Below, piece by piece: positions 6,730-48,983 of a stretch of 64,000 nt of DNA; position 1 is the first letter of the stretch; every line of letters begins with the position of its first letter. The stretch comes from Candidatus Zixiibacteriota bacterium (GTDB lineage Bacteria; Zixibacteria; MSB-5A5; GN15; FEB-12), in assembly GCA_040756055.1 (NCBI GenBank), contig JBFLZR010000001.1, forward strand, positions 623,849-687,848. Reading direction: 5' to 3'. The notes beneath the pieces are model-generated. The model had not been told where the DNA came from. It saw nothing but the letters and a program-made list of their open reading frames with translations, and made no database searches. The position numbers and the translations under genes were made by a program.

Positions 6730-7290
6730 CTATCCTTGAGCTTTCTCCTGCTCTTTGCGGAGTTTCTTAAGGCGTTTTTCGAGTTGCTTGCAGAAATCTC
6801 TCGATATCTGTCTGTAAGCATTATCTCCGGACTCCAACCCACTACTCACTGTAGCCCGAAAATTACCGCCAAACACGGTAAGACCTGTGGAGTTGTCCAC
6901 CAGCCGCATAGTCATCACGCAGTCGGCATTACCCAAACCAAATCCTACAAAAAACCTCACGACCCCACTGCCTTTTTTATATTCCAAAAAACTCCCGCGT
7001 ATCTCATAGTCTGGTATCAGCGTGTCTTCTGACAGCAGGTTGATGATGTCATACTTTTCTATTTCCTCCGTTAGGCATTCTTTGAATTTGGCAACGTCCT
7101 CGATAGTGGGTTTATCGCCTTCCGCAGTATTGATAGGCAGTTCATCGGCAAATGCGCCTATCTTACATGTTCGGTCGGGACTTATCCAATCCTCAAGGTC
7201 ATGTGTGATAGCATACCGATTGGTGCAGCCCGTCGACAGGATTGCCGTGATCATCGCTGCTATGATGCATGATTTCTTTAAGGCACTCAT
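6730..7290 (-). CDS. Lipoprotein, DUF4410-like
   Basis: A 186-residue predicted lipoprotein. The N terminus MSALKK is followed by a hydrophobic stretch and the lipobox ILSTGC. The mature part (a short acidic region, then alternating strands with VVRFFVGFGLGNADCVMTM and GLTVFGGNFRATV) resembles the DUF4410 family of envelope lipoproteins of unknown role, and the C terminus is a highly charged helix rich in Lys, Arg and Glu. The ATG at 7290 is chosen over a GTG at 7299 because GAGGG sits about 9 bases upstream of it. It lies 28 bases downstream of a barrel-protein gene on the same strand, so the two are probably one transcript. Confidence 0.65.
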   Translation of the reverse strand: MSALKKSCIIAAMITAILSTGCTNRYAITHDLEDWISPDRTCKIGAFADELPINTAEGDKPTIEDVAKFKECLTEEIEKYDIINLLSEDTLIPDYEIRGSFLEYKKGSGVVRFFVGFGLGNADCVMTMRLVDNSTGLTVFGGNFRATVSSGLESGDNAYRQISRDFCKQLEKRLKKLRKEQEKAQG

Positions 7291-7318
7291 TTGATTCACC
7301 CTCAGAATTTGCGGAACA

Positions 7319-8272
7319 TTATTTCAGCAGCAGGACCATTCCAAACTGAATATCAAAGTGATAGGCTAAATTCATTTCATCGTAGACGTAATACACGTCG
7401 CTTTGGTCCCCGTTTCCAAGCCACAAGATGTCAAGACAAGCGCCTAAGTTGAAACCCAGGTCTTGATCGATCAAAAAGTCCAACCCGGCCCCCATGGTAG
7501 TGATAAACTTGGTTTCAGTAGACTCAATTCGAGTGGTAAGGTTATATAAGGGATTGGATGCAAGGTAAGTTTGATCGGCCTCCAACTTGCTCGTGACGCC
7601 ACCGAACCCCCCGTAAACATAGTAGAGTACGCTCGGCTCGTCACGATTGAATGCCCCGTAAAATTGGGCTGAGAGCGAATATTTCCAGGTCGAAATGTTG
7701 TAGTCGTCCAATAGGTAAAAATCCACGTAGTTATCAGTAACCAAATACGCCAGACCGTCTTCCGGTCTTATCCCTGCGTAGGAGATCGACGCCCGAAAGG
7801 CGGTATTGTGAGTAAAAGGTACGATTATATTACCGTCAAAACCGAAACCGGACTGAAATCCTTCATAGTAATCTCCCAGTGGGAAACAGTAATTGCCTCC
7901 CCAGCTAAATCCTATTTTGTAAAGTTTTCGGCGCGCTTCTCTGTGTACGTCAGAGTCCGCGGATTTCCATGTTTCCCCGCCACGCTGCCGGTAATGGTCG
8001 CCTACTACTGACTCGGTGACGTCCTCGCCGTTGGAATCTACGATTACCGTGACATCCGTGAAGCTAACCACCTTTTTCTTATTTTCAAATTTGAAACTGA
8101 TAGTCTTGAGCCGACGATCCACGGTGTAGGACACATTTTCATAAACAGTGCTGTCTTTGAGCGTAATCGTGCCCTTTTCGGTTGTATAGGCGCTTACCGG
8201 TGGCGAGTATAAAGCAACTACTAGTATGCCGAACAAGACTGTCGGCCGGAGATATCCAAGGAACTGCTTCAT
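7319..8272 (-). CDS. Predicted outer-membrane beta-barrel protein
   Basis: A 317-residue exported protein. The start is placed at the second of two adjacent ATGs behind GGGGAG; the open frame extends further but without a signal sequence. The signal peptide (hydrophobic VLFGILVVALYSPPVSA) should be cut near residue 28. A short beta-rich domain follows (about 30-85; strands such as GTITLKDSTVYENVSYTV), then a region of alternating aromatic strands (for example AFRASISYAGIRPEDGLAY and KYSLSAQFYGAF) ending in AYHFDIQFGMVLLLK, as expected for a small porin-like barrel. No specific family was recognised. It is followed by a lipoprotein gene on the same strand. Confidence 0.65.
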   Translation of the reverse strand: MKQFLGYLRPTVLFGILVVALYSPPVSAYTTEKGTITLKDSTVYENVSYTVDRRLKTISFKFENKKKVVSFTDVTVIVDSNGEDVTESVVGDHYRQRGGETWKSADSDVHREARRKLYKIGFSWGGNYCFPLGDYYEGFQSGFGFDGNIIVPFTHNTAFRASISYAGIRPEDGLAYLVTDNYVDFYLLDDYNISTWKYSLSAQFYGAFNRDEPSVLYYVYGGFGGVTSKLEADQTYLASNPLYNLTTRIESTETKFITTMGAGLDFLIDQDLGFNLGACLDILWLGNGDQSDVYYVYDEMNLAYHFDIQFGMVLLLK

Positions 8273-8407
8273 CATCTCCCCTTTCACGATTAACTTTGAA
8301 TTAACTCTGATTCGCTTGAATATAGAGAAAGAGGTCCAGCAAAGCAAACGGTTTCGCCAGGCTTCGGATCGGGCCGGGTAACCATGTGAAAAATCCCACA
8401 AACCCGC

Positions 8408-8435
8408 TTGCGGCCAAACGCCAATTTGCTATATT
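8408..8435 (+). promoter_or_regulatory. Predicted sigma-70-type promoter of fumC
   Basis: A -35-like TTGCGG (8408-8413) and a -10-like TATATT (8430-8435) are 16 bases apart, about 50 bases before the fumC ATG. The divergent barrel-protein gene starts 136 bases to the left, so this gap carries promoters both ways. Confidence 0.45.
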
Positions 8436-8484
8436 CTCACAATAAAATACTGCGAAATTAAGCCACAAAATTTCGGGAGAAAAT

Positions 8485-9873
8485 ATGGAATATCGCGTAG
8501 AAACCGACACTATGGGCGAAATAAAGGTCCCCGCGGACAAGTACTATGGCGCCCAAACAGCCCGCTCGCTGATGAATTTCCGCATCGGCGGCGAACGCAT
8601 GCCCCGCGAACTCATCAGGGCCTTCGGTATCCTTAAAAAAGCCGCCGCTCAGGTCAATATGCAGCTCGGCACCCTGCCCAAGGAAAAGGGCGACCTGATT
8701 GTCAAGGCCGCCGATGAAGTCATCGAAGGCAAACTCGATGACCATTTCCCGCTCGTAATCTGGCAGACCGGCTCCGGAACCCAGACCAATATGAATGTCA
8801 ACGAGGTAGTCGCCAACCGGGCGATTGAAATGGCCGGCGGACAACTCGGCTCCAAAAAGCCGGTTCACCCCAACGACGATGTCAACAAGGCGCAGTCGTC
8901 CAACGACACTTTCCCGACCGCGATGCACATCGCGGCGGTCGAAGAAATCCACCGCCGTTTGATTCCGATGGTCACCCAGCTTCGTGATACTCTGGACAAA
9001 AAGTCCAAGGATTTCAAAGATATCATCAAAATCGGTCGCACCCACTTGATGGATGCTGTCCCGCTCACGCTGGGGCAGGAGTTCTCCGGCTATGTTGAGG
9101 CCCTTTCGCTTGGACTGGTTAGAATCAACGAGTGTCTGCAGAGGCTGTACCCGCTGGCCCTCGGTGGCACCGCTGTCGGCACCGGCCTGAACACTCATCC
9201 GGAGTTCGCCGTCAAATCAGCCGCCCAGATAGCCAAATTGACCGGTAAGAAATTCGTAACGGCCCCGAACAAGTTCGAGGCTCTGGCGGCTCACGATGCT
9301 ATTGTCGAGGCCTCCGGCGTCATGAAAACCCTGGCCTGCTCGCTGATGAAGATGGCCAACGATGTTCGCTGGCTGGCCAGCGGCCCCCGTTGCGGTATCG
9401 GCGAAATCGCTATCCCCGAAAACGAACCGGGATCGTCAATCATGCCCGGCAAAGTCAACCCGACTCAGCCCGAAGCGATGACGATGGTGTGCGCTCAGGT
9501 TATCGGCAACGATGTTGCCGTGAACATCGGTGGGGCATCGGGCAATTTCGAACTGAACGTATTCAAGCCGGTCATGATCTATAACCTGCTCCAGTCGATC
9601 CGCCTCATTGCCGATGCTTGCGAGATGTTCAACGAGAACTGCGCGGTGGGTATCGAGCCCAATAAAGCCAATATCAAGAGATTCCTCGATAACTCCCTGA
9701 TGCTGGTCACGGCTCTAAACCCGCACGTCGGCTATGACAACGCGGCGAAGATTGCCAAGAAGGCTCACGCCGATGGTTCCACTCTTAAGGAAGCCGCGGT
9801 GGCTCTGGGTCTTTTGACTGAAAAAGAGTTCGATGAGAAAGTCAGGCCGGAAAAGATGATCGGCCCTAAATAA
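8485..9873 (+). CDS. fumC: Fumarate hydratase, class II (FumC)
   Basis: Hydrates fumarate to L-malate in the citric acid cycle, without an iron-sulfur cluster. The 462-residue protein carries the class II signature [15 protein letters not shown] with the catalytic serine loop, the [14 protein letters not shown] block, and [19 protein letters not shown]. All of these fit fumarase better than aspartase or argininosuccinate lyase. GGGAGAAAAT precedes the ATG. A strong hairpin (9898-9924) follows the stop, so fumC is probably transcribed alone. Confidence 0.97.
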
Positions 9874-42571: not shown

Positions 42572-45055
42572 CTATTTCTTTTTCCCGGAGGGTTTCTTGC
42601 CGTTGTTGTTCGCCTGGATTCGTCCGTAATTTTGAAGCGCGAGCGCCATTTCGTGAAGCTTGGCGTCCACCCGGCCAAGCACCGTATGCGCTTGAAACTT
42701 TCCGGTGGCACGACGTTTGCCCGCAGGCACTCCGGTGAGAATCTCGATCCCCTCTTCAATCGTCTTCACCGGATAGATATGGAACTTGCCCGCCTTGATG
42801 GCCTCATTGACGTCCGGACGAAGCATTAAATCAGATACGTTCTGATGAGGGATGATCACGCCCTGCCTGCCGGTGAGGCGCCGCGATTTGCATACGTCGA
42901 AGAACCCCTCAACTTTCTCATTTACACCGCCAATCGGCTGAATCTCGCCCTTCTGATTGACTGATCCCGTGACCGCGATGTCTTGCCTGATGGGAATTCC
43001 GGAGATCGATGAAAGTATGGCGTATATCTCGGTTGACGATGCCGAGTCACCATCAACACCGCTGTATGATTGCTCGAACGATATCGATGCCGCCATGGCC
43101 AGGGGCTTGTCCTGCGCGAACATCTCCCTCAAGTATCCACTCAATACCAGCACGCCCTTGTTGTGAATCGGGCCCGACAAATCCGCCTCGCGCTCAATGT
43201 TGATCACACCCTCCTTGCCGAGCGCCGTATTGACCGTGATTCTGGTGGGCCTGCCAAACGAATACTCACCGAGATTGTACACGGAGAGGCCGTTAATCTG
43301 ACCCACCGCTGAGCCGGTGGTCGATACCATCAATGTATTGTCGTCATACAGCTCCTGAATCTTCTCCTCGACCAGGTTTATGCGCGAGCGCTTGTTGCGG
43401 ATAGCACAATGCACGTCTTCTCGCGTAACCTGTTTCCCCTGGCGCTCCTGGGCGCAGAAAGCACTTTCTTTGATTATATCCGAAACCGGCGTGAACCGCG
43501 TTGTGAGCCGATCGCGACGACCCGACAGACGCATGCCGTACTCACAGACAGCCTGCATGCCGGTGACATCGAACGGCATAAGCTGCTCGTCGTCAACAAC
43601 CTTGCGGACAAACTCGAAGTACTCCCGAAGGCTCTTCTTCGTCAGCGGCATAACATTGTCGAACTCCGCCTTGACCTTGAAAATCTTCTTGAAATCCTCA
43701 TCGAGACGCCACAACAGACGATAAATCTCCGGCTCACCAATTAACACCACCTTGACATCCAGCGGAATAGGCTCAGGTTTGATACCGGCGCCGGCCATCA
43801 TGTAGAACGGATCATAACCGGTGATCTCGATCTCACGGTTGCGAAGTGCCCTTTTCAAAAATGTCCACATGCCCGGCTCGGTAAGCACATCCATCGCATT
43901 CATGATGAAAAATCCACCCGATGCCTGCAGCAGCGAGCCCGAAAAAATACGCGTGAAATCCGTTCGCCAGTATCCGAAGCGGTCTACCACACGCTCGAGC
44001 GATCCAAATATATTTTTATACGATGGCGATTTTTCGATTACTATCGGCGCTTTTTCGGCCTCGGAATTGTCCAGAATCAAGTTAACCGAAAACTCTTCGA
44101 ACGGCTCGCGCTTGCGAAACGGCGGAGGCTCCTCTTCACCCCGTCTGGGCTGTGCTTCACGAAAACGATCTATATCGCCCAGTAGAGCTTCCTCAACCTC
44201 ATCCAGGTACTGCTGTACCTTATCCTCGGGATATCTCTTCTTCAAAAGAGCGATCTTGTCCGAAATAAGCGGTGATAGTATATCCAGATCGAGCTTGCCC
44301 AGAGCATCTTCAAGCTTATTGGTGAGCTTCTTTGACTCGACCGTAACAGTGTCGAACTCGCGACGAAGACTGTCCCACCGCCGGCGAAGCTCATCGAGCC
44401 GCGAAAGCGAAAACTTGCCCTCCTTCGCCAAACGCTCAAGCTTCTCCAGAGAATTCGGCTCACCATCAATCAACGGCTGTATCTCATTGCGTACGCCCAT
44501 GCCGATTTGGAGCTGAACCATCACGAATCCACCTTCGGTCAGCTTATCCTCAAAAGCATTGATGATGTCCTTCTGACGACCCTCGAACTCGCGGATGATC
44601 CTGCTCTGACGATCCTTGTAATCCTCGGACATGAATATCTTGGGAACGACCTTGCGGACCGAGCCAATAAGATAATTTACATCCTTCTTGAACCGAGTGC
44701 CGTCGCCCGCCTTGAAAGTCAATACTTTCGGCTGGTCTTCGTTTTTGAAGTTGTTCACATAGCAGATGTCGTTCAGTTGCGGCCTTTCCTGGTCGAGCTG
44801 CTCCAAAAGAAGCTTGATAGTCGTCGATCGTCCCGTTCCCGATAAACCGGTCACGAAAATATTGTAACCGGCGCTTCTGACGCTGAGCCCCAGCTTGATA
44901 GCTTCAATAGCCTTCACCTGCCCGATGATGCCCGCGCAGCGGGGAACATCCTTTGAGGTCTTTATTCTGGCTGGACTGAAATCTATCGTGTAATCAAGGT
45001 CTTTGAATTTGAGTTCTCGCGGTGATTTTATCTTCCGGGGCATTCGTGCGGGCAT
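42572..45055 (-). CDS. Lon-like ATP-dependent protease (AAA_32/Lon_C type)
   Basis: An 827-residue ATP-dependent protease of the LonB/LonC-like family without the Lon substrate-binding N domain. Domains: a nucleotide-binding P-loop near the N terminus (FVTGLSGTGRSTTIK, about 70-84), a long helical insert (about 100-330), an AAA core region with FGYWRTDFTRIFSGSLLQASGGF, shown as GSLLQASGGFFIMNAM, and the Lon protease domain with the catalytic dyad S671 (GVDGDSASSTE) and K714 (IGGVNEKVEGF), 43 residues apart as in Lon. It starts at ATG with GGAGGAATAG in front. Substrates are unknown; LonB-type proteases are often membrane-bound or cytosolic quality-control enzymes. Confidence 0.9.
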   Translation of the reverse strand: MPARMPRKIKSPRELKFKDLDYTIDFSPARIKTSKDVPRCAGIIGQVKAIEAIKLGLSVRSAGYNIFVTGLSGTGRSTTIKLLLEQLDQERPQLNDICYVNNFKNEDQPKVLTFKAGDGTRFKKDVNYLIGSVRKVVPKIFMSEDYKDRQSRIIREFEGRQKDIINAFEDKLTEGGFVMVQLQIGMGVRNEIQPLIDGEPNSLEKLERLAKEGKFSLSRLDELRRRWDSLRREFDTVTVESKKLTNKLEDALGKLDLDILSPLISDKIALLKKRYPEDKVQQYLDEVEEALLGDIDRFREAQPRRGEEEPPPFRKREPFEEFSVNLILDNSEAEKAPIVIEKSPSYKNIFGSLERVVDRFGYWRTDFTRIFSGSLLQASGGFFIMNAMDVLTEPGMWTFLKRALRNREIEITGYDPFYMMAGAGIKPEPIPLDVKVVLIGEPEIYRLLWRLDEDFKKIFKVKAEFDNVMPLTKKSLREYFEFVRKVVDDEQLMPFDVTGMQAVCEYGMRLSGRRDRLTTRFTPVSDIIKESAFCAQERQGKQVTREDVHCAIRNKRSRINLVEEKIQELYDDNTLMVSTTGSAVGQINGLSVYNLGEYSFGRPTRITVNTALGKEGVINIEREADLSGPIHNKGVLVLSGYLREMFAQDKPLAMAASISFEQSYSGVDGDSASSTEIYAILSSISGIPIRQDIAVTGSVNQKGEIQPIGGVNEKVEGFFDVCKSRRLTGRQGVIIPHQNVSDLMLRPDVNEAIKAGKFHIYPVKTIEEGIEILTGVPAGKRRATGKFQAHTVLGRVDAKLHEMALALQNYGRIQANNNGKKPSGKKK

Positions 45056-45540
45056 CTATTCCTCCGTTTGTGAAACGTTGACCGGTAATATAAAGACTAC
45101 GTTAATCGAAAAAAGTTAAAAACAGGTATTCACCTCAACAACAGTCACAGCCGGCCGACTGGTTCTCCGGTTGACAATACTCACCCCTAAATATTCGAAA
45201 GCCGGCCTAATATTGCCCGGAACGCCTGTCAACCGGCACTAAATCGGCCGACATCAGCCTGCATGACCTGCGTAGAATCTCTTCTTAATAAGCTGTTAAT
45301 AGACAATAAAATCTGAAAGTAGCGGCCACAATGGCAGCGGCAGTGCCGTATTGGCATTATTGTCGATACAAAAATCTTAAAAAAAACGCGAAATTGTGAC
45401 TTTTAGTAACCCGTTCATGGCCTTATTATTACAGAAAAGGGCCTTGTAAGTCGTTGATAATCAACATAATCTTATTTCTTGACAGGCATCCGGGTCATAT
45501 AATATCTTTAGCCGTTGCTTTTTAGCATTGCGCATTGAAT
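45056..45540 (+). other. 485-base intergenic region with a 10-bp inverted repeat and a tRNA promoter
   Basis: No gene is visible. A pair of 10-base arms, CCGGTTGACA (45167-45176) and TGTCAACCGG (45227-45236), encloses a 50-base spacer about 110-180 bases upstream of the Lon-like gene. Several GCCGGCC repeats lie within and beside it. Near the right end TTGACA (45479-45484) is 15 bases from TAATAT (45500-45505), about 36 bases before tRNA-Glu, a likely tRNA promoter. Confidence 0.5.
45479..45505 (+). promoter_or_regulatory. Predicted promoter of tRNA-Glu
   Basis: TTGACA (45479-45484) and TAATAT (45500-45505) with a 15-base spacer. TATAAT itself appears at 45498-45503, but at only 13 bases from the -35. 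Confidence 0.5.
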
Positions 45541-45612
45541 GGCGGTATCGTCTAGTGGTTAGGACGGGTGGTTCTCAGCCATCAAACCGGGGTTCGATCC
45601 CCCGTACCGCTG
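45541..45612 (+). tRNA. tRNA-Glu (anticodon CTC)
   Basis: A 72-base cloverleaf without encoded CCA. Acceptor GGCGGTA (45541-45547) pairs with TACCGCT, with one G-U end pair; the D arm has the Glu-type CGTCTAGTGGTTAGGAC; the anticodon loop is TTCTCAG with anticodon CTC; the T arm is CGGGG TTCGATC CCCCG. Discriminator G73. A strong hairpin terminator (45620-45653) follows. Confidence 0.93.
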
Positions 45613-45619
45613 GAAAGCT

Positions 45620-45653
45620 CCGGGTGTTTTCGAATAATATTGAAAACACCCGG
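45620..45653 (+). terminator. Intrinsic terminator after tRNA-Glu
   Basis: A 12-bp stem (CCGGGTGTTTTC with GAAAACACCCGG) and a 10-base loop, followed by TGTTCTTTTT. It ends the tRNA transcript and separates it from the membrane operon. Confidence 0.85.
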
Positions 45654-45815
45654 TGTTCTTTTTGGTGTATTCACAGAAATTCGTCGCGTTACATCTGCGC
45701 ATCTTGTCAATCCTGTCAACACCACCACTGTCGACACGTCTATTACACGTGGTTATACTGATTGACATTTGATGGTTACAGACTATATTCGTCTGTGCCC
45801 ACTGATTTTAAGCAT

Positions 45816-46670
45816 ATGTTTCGACACTGCCTTTATTTAGTCTCAGCAATCATCATTTTTGGCTATGACCTGGCCATGGCGCAGGCGCCGGACACTGTCA
45901 TCCGGTGGGATCGACTCAATGCCCTCATTCTGGTCGTCGTTTTCAGCGCCGCGGTACTTCTTTACACCCGATGGGCCAAAGCCGGCAAGCCGCTCTATTT
46001 ACGCAAGATTGCGGGGCTCGCCGCCGTAGAGGAAGCGGTCGGAAGAGCTACCGAAATGGGCAGACCGGTACTGTATATTCCTGGAATCGCGGAGCTCGAC
46101 GAGATCGAAACGATAGCGGGTGTGTCTATTCTCGGCAGAGTCGCCAAAATTACTGCCCAGTACGATACTCCCCTGATGGTCCCCGTTCGCTATCCTTTGG
46201 TCCTGGCCGCTGGACAGGAAGTCGTGGAGCAGGCCTATGCCGAGATGGGCAGAAAAGACTCTTACGATAAAGACACCGTTCGCTACGTGGCCGGTGAGCA
46301 ATTCGCGTTCACGGCGACGGTCAACGGCTATATGATGCGAGAGCGGCCTGCCACAAACATCTATATGGGCGCTTTCTTTGCCGAGTCACTCTTGTTGGCT
46401 GAAACCGGAAACGCCGCAGGCTCAATTCAGATAGCCGGTACCGCCCGGGCCGAGCAGCTTCCGTTCTTCATTGCCGCCTGCGACTACACCCTGATGGGCG
46501 AAGAGTTGTATGCGGCGTCTGCCTATCTGTCCCGCGAACCGGTGATGACTGGCGGGCTGAAAGGGCAGGATTTCATTAAGGTGATCATCGTCGTCATGGT
46601 AATCATTGGTGTTCTGTTGGCCACTTTTGGGTTCGGCGACTGGTTTATCAGCCTGTTTGAGGAAGTCTAA
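45816..46670 (+). CDS. Membrane protein, DUF6754-like, first gene of a four-gene membrane operon
   Basis: A 284-residue membrane protein. The ATG at 45816 gives a signal-like N terminus (MFRHCLYLVSAIIIFGYDL, cut after AMA) and then a transmembrane segment (about 34-51, LNALILVVVFSAAVLLY). A large soluble middle (about 55-245) has a conserved look: LRKIAGLAAVEEAVGRATEMG, shown as AVEEAVGRATEMGRPVLYI, PGIAELDEIETIAGVSILG, VPVRYPLVLAAGQEVVEQA, and GTARAEQLPFFIAACDY. A C-terminal transmembrane helix (about 250-270, FIKVIIVVMVIIGVLLATF) closes it. It resembles what I recall as DUF6754, whose role is unknown. A TTG at 45762 is possible but less likely. Confidence 0.65.
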   Translation: MFRHCLYLVSAIIIFGYDLAMAQAPDTVIRWDRLNALILVVVFSAAVLLYTRWAKAGKPLYLRKIAGLAAVEEAVGRATEMGRPVLYIPGIAELDEIETIAGVSILGRVAKITAQYDTPLMVPVRYPLVLAAGQEVVEQAYAEMGRKDSYDKDTVRYVAGEQFAFTATVNGYMMRERPATNIYMGAFFAESLLLAETGNAAGSIQIAGTARAEQLPFFIAACDYTLMGEELYAASAYLSREPVMTGGLKGQDFIKVIIVVMVIIGVLLATFGFGDWFISLFEEV

Positions 46671-46676
46671 TACTGC

Positions 46677-47363
46677 ATGCGTACTGCTATACCGACAATC
46701 ATGGCTTTCATCTCCGGATTCGTACTGGTCGTGGCATTCTTTTTCCGTGGCGACACTCCCATTGGAAGCCTCCGCCAGGAATTCACCGTCTGGCTGACAA
46801 TTGTGGGCGGATTTACGCTCATACTCGGCGTTGCGTCGATAATCAGGGTCAATTGGTCCTCGGTAGCCAGGAAAAAGGCCGGGTGGGGTTACAAACTGCT
46901 AACCCTCATTGCGGTTTTCGCTATGGCGATACCTTCAGTCTTGCCCACTTCATGGGCCACTTACGTTGTGGACGGAGGTACATTTTCACTCTTCGGTCAC
47001 ACGGATGGTTCAATATATGACTGGCTGTTCAATTACATGCAGGCGCCGATGATGGCGACTATGTTCGCCACCCTCGCTTTCTACATCGCGTCAGCGGCAT
47101 ACCGGGCGTTCCGCGCCCGCTCCGCACAAGCCACGCTGCTTTTGCTAACCGCCACGTTGATCATGCTGGTGAGAGTTCCGATGGGAGAAGCTTTCCTGGG
47201 AATGCTCCCCGGCGACGTCCCCGGGTGGCTGAACACCTATATCATGAGTGGTGTCAATATGGCCGTCCAAAGAGGTATTATCATCGGGGCCGCTCTTGGA
47301 GCCGCTTCCATGGCGCTGCGAATCATGCTTGGCATCGAACGGACATACATGGGGAACCGGTAA
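46677..47363 (+). CDS. Polytopic membrane protein, second gene of the four-gene operon
   Basis: A 228-residue protein with about five to six transmembrane segments (approximately 5-22, 35-58, 72-92, 120-140, 148-168 and 190-212). Recognisable hydrophobic runs are AFISGFVLVVAFFF, WLTIVGGFTLILGVASII and ALGAASMALRIMLGIE. Loops are short and moderately polar. Starts 6 bases after the previous gene and ends 3 bases before the next. No family recognised; it could form the membrane core with its neighbours. Confidence 0.65.
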   Translation: MRTAIPTIMAFISGFVLVVAFFFRGDTPIGSLRQEFTVWLTIVGGFTLILGVASIIRVNWSSVARKKAGWGYKLLTLIAVFAMAIPSVLPTSWATYVVDGGTFSLFGHTDGSIYDWLFNYMQAPMMATMFATLAFYIASAAYRAFRARSAQATLLLLTATLIMLVRVPMGEAFLGMLPGDVPGWLNTYIMSGVNMAVQRGIIIGAALGAASMALRIMLGIERTYMGNR

Positions 47364-47366
47364 GAG

Positions 47367-48203
47367 ATGAACTTCTGGGAGAAAATGGAAAACATTGACC
47401 GCCGCTGGGTCTATCTGGCTGTCGCAGTGGCGGTAGTGATGCCGTTTCTTTTTCCCACCCCTCTGCCGATTGGTGTCACTCCCGAGGCTCAATCATTGTA
47501 TGATGCTGTCGAGGCTTTACCGAATGGCTGCAATGTGATGGTTGTCTATGACTACTACCCATCAACCATTGCCGAATGCGAGCCGATAGCAATCGCCGCA
47601 CTTCACCACCTCTTTAGAAAAGACTGCAAAGTGATAACACTTAGCAACATACCTTATGGTGGGCCATCGATGGCTGAGAGGGTAACGAGGATGATGGCCG
47701 AGCAGTACGGTAAAGAGTATGGAGTCGATTTCGTAAATCTCGGCTACAAATACGGCTACGTTGCTGTTTTGTCCGGGATGGGTCAATCAATTGAAGGAAT
47801 TTTCCCAACCGATAACTCGGGTACCCCTTTGTCAGAATTGCCGCTCATGGATTCAGTTAAAAATTACGACGACATTTCGTTCATTTTTGAAGTTGCGGAT
47901 AACGCCACTGCTGACTACTGGGTGTCAATTGTAAACGCTCAGTACGGTGTTCCAATCGGTTGCGGAGGCACGGCCGTGATGGCGCCGAAGTTCTATGCTT
48001 ATGTATCTTCGGGCCAGTTCGTCGGATTGCTGGGAGGTATGCGCGGAGCGGCCGAATACGAACTGTTGATCAATGAAAAGGGCGATGCTGTTACCGGGAT
48101 GCAGGCCCAGTCGCTGGTTCATCTGCTTATCATCGCCTTGGTGGTTTTAGGAAACATTGGCTATTTCCTGGGACGGGGTAGACGCGGGAAGGGATTGAGG
48201 TAG
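47367..48203 (+). CDS. Membrane-tethered protein with a large soluble domain, third gene of the operon
   Basis: A 278-residue protein with an N-terminal transmembrane segment (about 14-32, WVYLAVAVAVVMPFLF) and a C-terminal one (about 248-268, LVHLLIIALVVLGNIGYFL). In between is a compact alpha/beta domain (about 40-235) with NVMVVYDYYPSTIAECEPIA, FVNLGYKYGYVAVLSGMG, and VPIGCGGTAVMAPKFYAYV. The pattern resembles small NTP- or sugar-binding periplasmic domains but no motif is firm. It starts 3 bases after the second gene. Confidence 0.65.
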   Translation: MNFWEKMENIDRRWVYLAVAVAVVMPFLFPTPLPIGVTPEAQSLYDAVEALPNGCNVMVVYDYYPSTIAECEPIAIAALHHLFRKDCKVITLSNIPYGGPSMAERVTRMMAEQYGKEYGVDFVNLGYKYGYVAVLSGMGQSIEGIFPTDNSGTPLSELPLMDSVKNYDDISFIFEVADNATADYWVSIVNAQYGVPIGCGGTAVMAPKFYAYVSSGQFVGLLGGMRGAAEYELLINEKGDAVTGMQAQSLVHLLIIALVVLGNIGYFLGRGRRGKGLR

Positions 48204-48208
48204 GGCCA

Positions 48209-48835
48209 ATGGAAACCTTTCAACTCTGGCTGATGGCTCTTCTGACTCTGGCCCTGTTCTCTTTCATGTACCGGGACAACCCGATATACAGAATCGCGGA
48301 GCACATCTTCGCAGGGCTTACCGTCGGGTATCAGGTCGGTCTGATCTGGCACTCGATTATCCTGCAACAATTGTGGACGCCGATCCTCGATGGCGATTGG
48401 TGGAAGATCGTCCCGGGTGTGCTGGGATTGTTGATGCTCACTCGACTGAGCGGTAAGGTCTCCTGGATATCACGAACCTCGCTGGCCTTCGTGATGGGCA
48501 CCACCGCCGGTATTTTCCTCATTTCCGAACTTCACGGACGAGTTTTGCCACAAATGCAGGATACTATGCTGTCTCTCAGTGGTGAAGACGGCTTCGCGAC
48601 GACACTGTTGTCGATAATCATCGTGGTTGGTGTTCTCTCGACGCTGATATATTTCTATTTCTCAAAAGAACACTCCGGCGTTCTGGGTGTCACCGCCCAG
48701 GTAGGTATCTGGTTTATTATGGTCGCTTTCGGCGCCCATTTCGGCTATACCGTCATGGGCCGTGTGTCGCTTCTTATCGGCAGGGTCCAGTTCCTCATCG
48801 AAAACTGGATAGGTTCTTTCGACCAACTCCTCTAA
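48209..48835 (+). CDS. Polytopic membrane protein, fourth gene of the operon
   Basis: A 208-residue protein with five to six predicted transmembrane segments (about 5-22, 34-52, 70-90, 100-118, 132-152, 160-185). Conserved-looking stretches are YRDNPIYRIAEHIFAGLTVG, LLMLTRLSGKVSWISRTSLA, and GTTAGIFLISELHGRVLPQM. The pattern YRIAEHIFAG with acidic residues inside the membrane region is notable. Begins 5 bases after the third gene; no family recognised. Confidence 0.65.
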   Translation: METFQLWLMALLTLALFSFMYRDNPIYRIAEHIFAGLTVGYQVGLIWHSIILQQLWTPILDGDWWKIVPGVLGLLMLTRLSGKVSWISRTSLAFVMGTTAGIFLISELHGRVLPQMQDTMLSLSGEDGFATTLLSIIIVVGVLSTLIYFYFSKEHSGVLGVTAQVGIWFIMVAFGAHFGYTVMGRVSLLIGRVQFLIENWIGSFDQLL

Positions 48836-48983
48836 ATGTCGCCCCCGAATATTGCGCCACTCGAACGTATATCTGCATATTGCATAGCCGGTTAACCTCT
48901 TAGAACATCTCCGAAGATATTTCCTTGTCAAAACCGGACTGTTTGCATACTATTAAGACAAACGCAGAACGGAACAGCATTTT

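Follow-up and report, generated by a model that had tools for sequence, protein, structure and literature searches.

A four-gene membrane cassette with one named family

The question raised by this locus is what four closely spaced genes for membrane proteins (A to D) do together, and whether their products form one complex. In the window, i.e., the whole stretch of 64,000 nucleotides analyzed here, all four open reading frames were intact and co-directional, with gaps of 6, 3, and 5 nt at A/B, B/C, and C/D, respectively, as the initial annotation had described (Table 1). Its account of the flanks was also accurate, since a tRNA-Glu and a terminator hairpin were found on the left, and the right-hand neighbor of D was identified as an NTP_transferase by Pfam search. 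The promoter-like site upstream of A ends 26 nt 5' of its ATG, and together with the second such site before the downstream gene, it fits ABCD as a separate transcription unit, as far as consensus matches can indicate.

TABLE 1 Coordinates of the features in the window and of the individual features at other loci
Feature	Location	Position	Strand	Remarks
ATPase/Lon-protease-like protein	Window	42572-45055	minus	827 aa; left of the tRNA; by inspection
tRNA-Glu	Window	45540-45613		Left of gene A
Terminator hairpin	Window	45620-45653		14 bp; between tRNA-Glu and gene A
Promoter-like site TTGACA-16-TATATT	Window	45762..45789	+	11/12 consensus matches; consensus alone, not proof
Gene A	Window	45816..46670	+	284 aa; ATG at 45816; ORF intact
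Gene B	Window	46677..47363	+	228 aa; polytopic, about 6 TM
Gene C	Window	47367..48203	+	278 aa; TM, Rossmann-like domain (predicted periplasmic), TM
Gene D	Window	48209..48835	+	208 aa; polytopic membrane protein
Second promoter-like site	Window	48925-48953		Before the downstream nucleotidyltransferase gene; consensus matches only
DUF6754 protein, PQQ/BamB-like N-terminus	L110	8330-10753		
DUF6754 protein, PQQ/BamB-like N-terminus	L116	954-3632		
MutL + E-like barrel-sandwich fusion	L123, genome G121 (Zixibacteria)	6965-9808	minus	About 947 aa
Tol-Pal-like set	L007, contig 2 of the window's genome	2149-6861		After E, beside the tandem cassettes; by inspection

Gene A belongs to DUF6754 (PF20539), the identity that the initial annotation had correctly proposed, with a Pfam score of 388.8 bits (E = 1e-116; cut-off, 27) and an alignment that pairs residues 28 to 273 of its 284 with positions 5 to 250 of the 257-position model. 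This family has no assigned function; no mention of DUF6754 or PF20539 was found in the searched literature, and broader literature searches were uninformative. B, C, and D are without a family name in the searched libraries, as none of them matched a Pfam, NCBIfam, or PADLOC family above the cut-off, and the best Pfam match of B was DUF6077 at 18.2 bits, below the cut-off of 27.

The cassette is widespread, multicopy, and inherited as a unit

Five copies of A were detected in the window's genome, and reading of the loci revealed five complete ABCD cassettes: the one in the window, a tandem set of three on contig 2, and a further one on contig 5. Identity of the other copies to the window copy was 43 to 51% for A, 35 to 40% for B, 34 to 41% for C, and 41 to 48% for D. 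PF20539 was present in 132/132 sampled genomes of the phylum, most often in 4 to 6 copies, and in 0/14 named control genomes. Some genomes carry a single cassette copy, indicating that one cassette can suffice.

A contig scan returned more than 560 relatives, among them records under the titles Zixibacteria, Stahlbacteria, Latescibacterota, Coatesbacteria, Fermentibacteria, Cloacimonadota, Edwardsbacteria, Eisenbacteria, Riflebacteria, and Muiribacteriota, these phylum labels being the titles as deposited and some of them probably mislabelled. The initial annotation had named conservation of gene order as a test of its proposal, and the order A-B-C-D proved to be kept across many phyla in 223 distinct complete cassettes, a set to which additional genomes contributed, each on a single strand, with a median intergenic gap of 4 nt (110 of the 223 cassettes). 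Its recurrence on this scale means that the four-gene arrangement is not due to chance.

In the phylogenetic tree of A, Zixibacteria sequences from the three tandem positions fell mostly into separate groups, and the window type formed a Zixibacteria clade of its own (23 rows; support, 99). At multi-cassette loci, mirror-tree correlations among the four members of one cassette were high (r = 0.83 to 0.87) versus r values of at most 0.48 after paralogous cassettes had been shuffled within a locus, and thus the four genes are inherited and diverge together; the ABCD cassette is hereby shown by computation to be an evolutionary unit. In tandem arrays, the three paralogous cassettes diverged from each other early, and their products may assemble into distinct complexes or into hetero-oligomeric ones. 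Mean-field DCA of the 223 cassettes (Meff, 167) yielded a single inter-protein outlier, B75-D29 (10.9 sd), with both residues in parts predicted to be cytosolic, while all other inter-protein co-variation was at noise level.

Soluble domains are predicted on both faces of the membrane

The initial annotation had counted two polytopic proteins and two proteins anchored at both ends, and these were recovered as B and D and as A and C, respectively. TM segments at residues 36 to 54 and 253 to 271 of A enclose a soluble part of 198 residues, and those at 17 to 35 and 250 to 268 of C enclose one of 214 residues. A has a signal-peptide-like start (..FGYDLAMA-QA), by which its N-terminus is predicted to lie outside, and the basic stretch past its first TM segment predicts a cytosolic DUF6754 domain by the positive-inside rule. 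By the same rule, the nearly invariant RR12-13 before the first TM segment of C and the basic C-terminal tail RGRRGK after its last one predict a soluble domain on the periplasmic face. The Rossmann-like domains of A and C (described below) probably face opposite sides of the membrane, which sharpens the complementary topology noted at the outset. Profile-profile comparison of A, B, C, D, the neighboring protein E (see below), and two small neighbors detected no homology among them, and A and C are therefore not detectably paralogous.

Across the 223 cassettes, nearly invariant polar residues included R63, R77, E80, E190, S191, E196, Q205, D223, E229, and E230 in A; D62, E70, D121, Q217, E232, H252, and N263 in C; and D23, N24, E31, Q115, and R185 in D, which also carries the motifs SFxYxDNPxYxxAEH and FGAxFGYTVMxRxS. 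The extracytoplasmic N-terminal part of A varies among paralogues: the A protein of the window is almost devoid of an outer domain, the A proteins of the tandem copies in the same genome bear an extra FnIII/Ig-like stretch after the signal-like start, and in other organisms this place is taken by PQQ/BamB-like or different sequence. Two DUF6754 proteins whose extracytoplasmic N-terminus is PQQ/BamB-like instead of FnIII-like are listed in Table 1. An S49 peptidase apparently fused to A at another locus (L084) was discarded, because the junction spans a run of N.

Variable outer parts of this kind (FnIII-like or PQQ/BamB-like) are found in receptors, and they would suit an envelope scaffold or signal transducer in which the outer domain of A senses or binds and a signal is passed inward with no substrate moved, as would the Tol-Pal-like genes that follow E in the window's genome. 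However, A to D contain no Pfam output domain (kinase or cyclase), and an outer domain is nearly missing from the window's own A, so that we consider such a role unlikely.

An in-frame model supports one complex

At some loci, A, B, C, and D happen to share one reading frame. The four naturally in-frame genes of one such locus, labelled Coatesbacteria (L075), were modelled with AlphaFold as a single chain with stops read as glycine, using an alignment of this chain and 141 relatives, many of which span at least two genes in frame. The resulting model of 1056 residues had a mean pLDDT of 85.9 and a pTM of 0.87, the latter being a value for a read-through fusion, whose covalent linkage can favor packing, and standing without a negative control. 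Low confidence was confined to linkers (residues 274 to 292, 504 to 523, 790 to 808, and 814 to 821) and the last residues, and the high pTM across four chains points to a defined relative placement. The earlier suggestion of one complex thus gains support from the conserved order, the co-inheritance of the cassette, and the in-frame model, and A to D very probably constitute one inner-membrane complex.

In this model, the soluble parts of A (residues about 47 to 222) and C (residues about 570 to 755) aligned to Rossmann folds with VIA Z scores of 8 to 9.5 and about 8 to 9, respectively. RCK gating domains were among many Rossmann neighbors of A (Z, 8.5 to 9.3, with the four-chain model as query), and transhydrogenase and short-chain dehydrogenases scored similarly, so that RCK is no standout and the Rossmann matches are generic. 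In fold, the soluble domains of A and C in the model resemble RCK/TrkA-N (MthK, GsuK, and TrkA) and SDR/transhydrogenase domains, but identity is only about 10%, the window's A has no canonical GxGxxG, and the domain of C is predicted to be periplasmic. Foldseek with the 1056-residue four-chain model returned nothing at E ≤ 0.001, and the Foldseek/VIA list for this query was dominated by GPCR fusion constructs and Rossmann domains, an outcome that we consider uninformative for B and D, whose helical parts were barely probed.

It is conceivable that B and/or D are diverged forms of a known transporter, channel, or enzyme fold, for which A and C would act as regulatory lids, so that the system would be a novel form within an established transporter class, considering the many invariant polar residues of the polytopic proteins B and D and the resemblance of A to RCK gating domains, among other folds. 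Yet B, C, and D had no Pfam or NCBIfam match over the cut-off, the fold query being the four-chain model only, and we regard this explanation as rather improbable. A match to a transporter or secretion complex, which the initial annotation would have taken as evidence against a new complex, was not clearly present in the sequences of A to D, the fold of B and D being barely tested.

Comparison with known membrane machines

Known systems were compared with the cassette at the level of motifs and families. The Walker A motif GxxxxGK[ST] of ABC transporters occurred in 0/223 sequences of B, C, and D and in 6/223 of A, and A to D had no ABC Pfam hit, a result that covers these operon subunits and leaves an unlinked ATPase possible. 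The MotA_ExbB and ExbD domains expected of MotA/TolQ/ExbB proton-driven motors had no match in A to D in Pfam/NCBIfam at E values up to 1, and no PADLOC family of known anti-phage defence matched at the same limit. Moreover, no ATPase, flavin, or catalytic motif common to A to D and no transport motif in any of them was found. In our assessment, ABCD fits no known system, by sequence searches and by the fold search of the whole four-chain model.

A MutL-family ATPase and protein E accompany the cassette

A MutL-family protein and protein E (375 residues) neighbor ABCD in 21-22 of the fetched loci, one or both of them adjoin it in many loci, including Riflebacteria- and Muiribacteriota-labelled ones, and two small genes likewise recur beside cassettes. 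The window's genome has one copy each of MutL and E, both located next to the tandem cassettes and not next to the window copy, and E was present in 77/78 near-complete genomes of the phylum. Some of these genomes additionally carry a natural fusion of MutL with an E-like barrel-sandwich protein, the full sequence of which was read in one Zixibacteria genome (Table 1), and this argues that MutL and E work together. In several further genomes, open frames of about 870-980 aa contain an E-like match, besides a separate E.

The classical client of MutL is methylaspartate mutase. The neighbor of ABCD matches MutL/GlmL (PF13941, methylaspartate mutase reactivase) with 430 bits, but unlike GlmL it adjoins a membrane cassette, and scores below the GlmL equivalog cut-off (231.8 versus 475 bits). 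The methylaspartate mutase E subunit (PF06368) was not found in the window's genome, on which ground this mutase was rejected as the client here. More generally, the module could serve a cobalamin enzyme or glycine metabolism, with MutL reactivating a B12 mutase that ABCD anchors or feeds. Although the adjacency of MutL and the gcvP/gcvT genes read upstream in seven loci (Fermentibacteria, Aegiribacteria, Effluviviaceae, and other bins) agree with this scenario, PF06368 is missing as above, a mutase gene was never observed next to the cassette, and Zixibacteria loci did not show the gcv link, which makes it quite unlikely.

E comprises a barrel-sandwich domain, an RraA/PEP-utilising-type swivelling domain, and a NusG-like KOW domain. 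Its barrel-sandwich part weakly matches RnfC_N/NQRA_N (E = 6e-4, below the cut-off), and Na+-NQR was among its Foldseek hits, as might be expected if E were the RnfC/NqrA-like peripheral subunit of a redox-driven ion pump akin to Rnf/Nqr. Unlike RnfC and NqrA, however, E continues into the swivelling and KOW domains and has no conserved FeS cysteines (CxxC in 2/19 E rows), barrel-sandwich domains are generic, and in A to D the flavinylation-type motif SGA[ST] (by the regex used) was found in 0/223 cassettes and CxxC in at most 5/223 sequences of any member. A pump of this type is accordingly very unlikely, the least probable of the alternatives weighed here.

Wider gene context differs among lineages. 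The Tol-Pal-like set of the window's genome comprises, by inspection, TolQ/R, TonB-like, TolB, Pal, and YbgF-like genes. Glycine cleavage genes lie upstream of MutL-E-ABCD at L061, L067, L068, L082, L100, L106, and L107, and a lipoate-ligase-like gene lies downstream in a few gcv-linked loci. At L057, L060, L062, and their relatives, a window-type cassette is preceded by HPr, PTS enzyme I, and sugar-phosphate isomerase genes and followed by nucleotidyltransferase, MetK, and adenosylhomocysteinase genes; in the window itself, tRNA-Glu takes the place of the former three. These lineage-dependent contexts (gcv, Tol-Pal-like, and PTS), obtained by sequence reading, are leads and not evidence of function.

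Proposed mechanism and implications

As judged from topology, B and D would form the membrane core, to which A would contribute a cytosolic Rossmann-like domain and the paralogue-variable extracytoplasmic part, and C a Rossmann-like domain on the periplasmic face. Conservation of the nearly invariant polar residues suggests a candidate ligand site in A after strands 4-6 (E190, S191, E196, Q205, T209, Q214, C222, D223, T225, E229, and E230), where binding could be coupled via B and D to C outside. Their gene neighborhood suggests that the MutL-family ATPase and E may serve the complex from the cytosolic side, either powering or regulating it. Its most likely role would be trans-membrane coupling in the form of transport or ligand-gated passage, with transport or gating as such being a tentative assignment. 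Taken as a whole, an ABCD complex for trans-membrane coupling (transport or ligand-gated), served by MutL-E, is on balance the probable and best explanation of these data.

The initial annotation missed that the cassette is present five times in the genome, that MutL and E are its partners, and that the outer part of A varies among paralogues. ABCD is invisible today because no subunit other than A bears so much as a DUF name. The tight, strongly conserved cassette with its confident model is a practical candidate for expression and cryo-EM, and its link to MutL-E provides a first handle on the energy source or regulation of the complex. ABCD together with the MutL-E pair is plausibly, if less than probably, an undescribed class of ATPase-served membrane machine, core to Zixibacteria and many candidate phyla. 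The presence of the cassette in every sampled genome of the phylum, usually in multiple copies, and the order kept across phyla suggest that it likely belongs to the core physiology of these bacteria.
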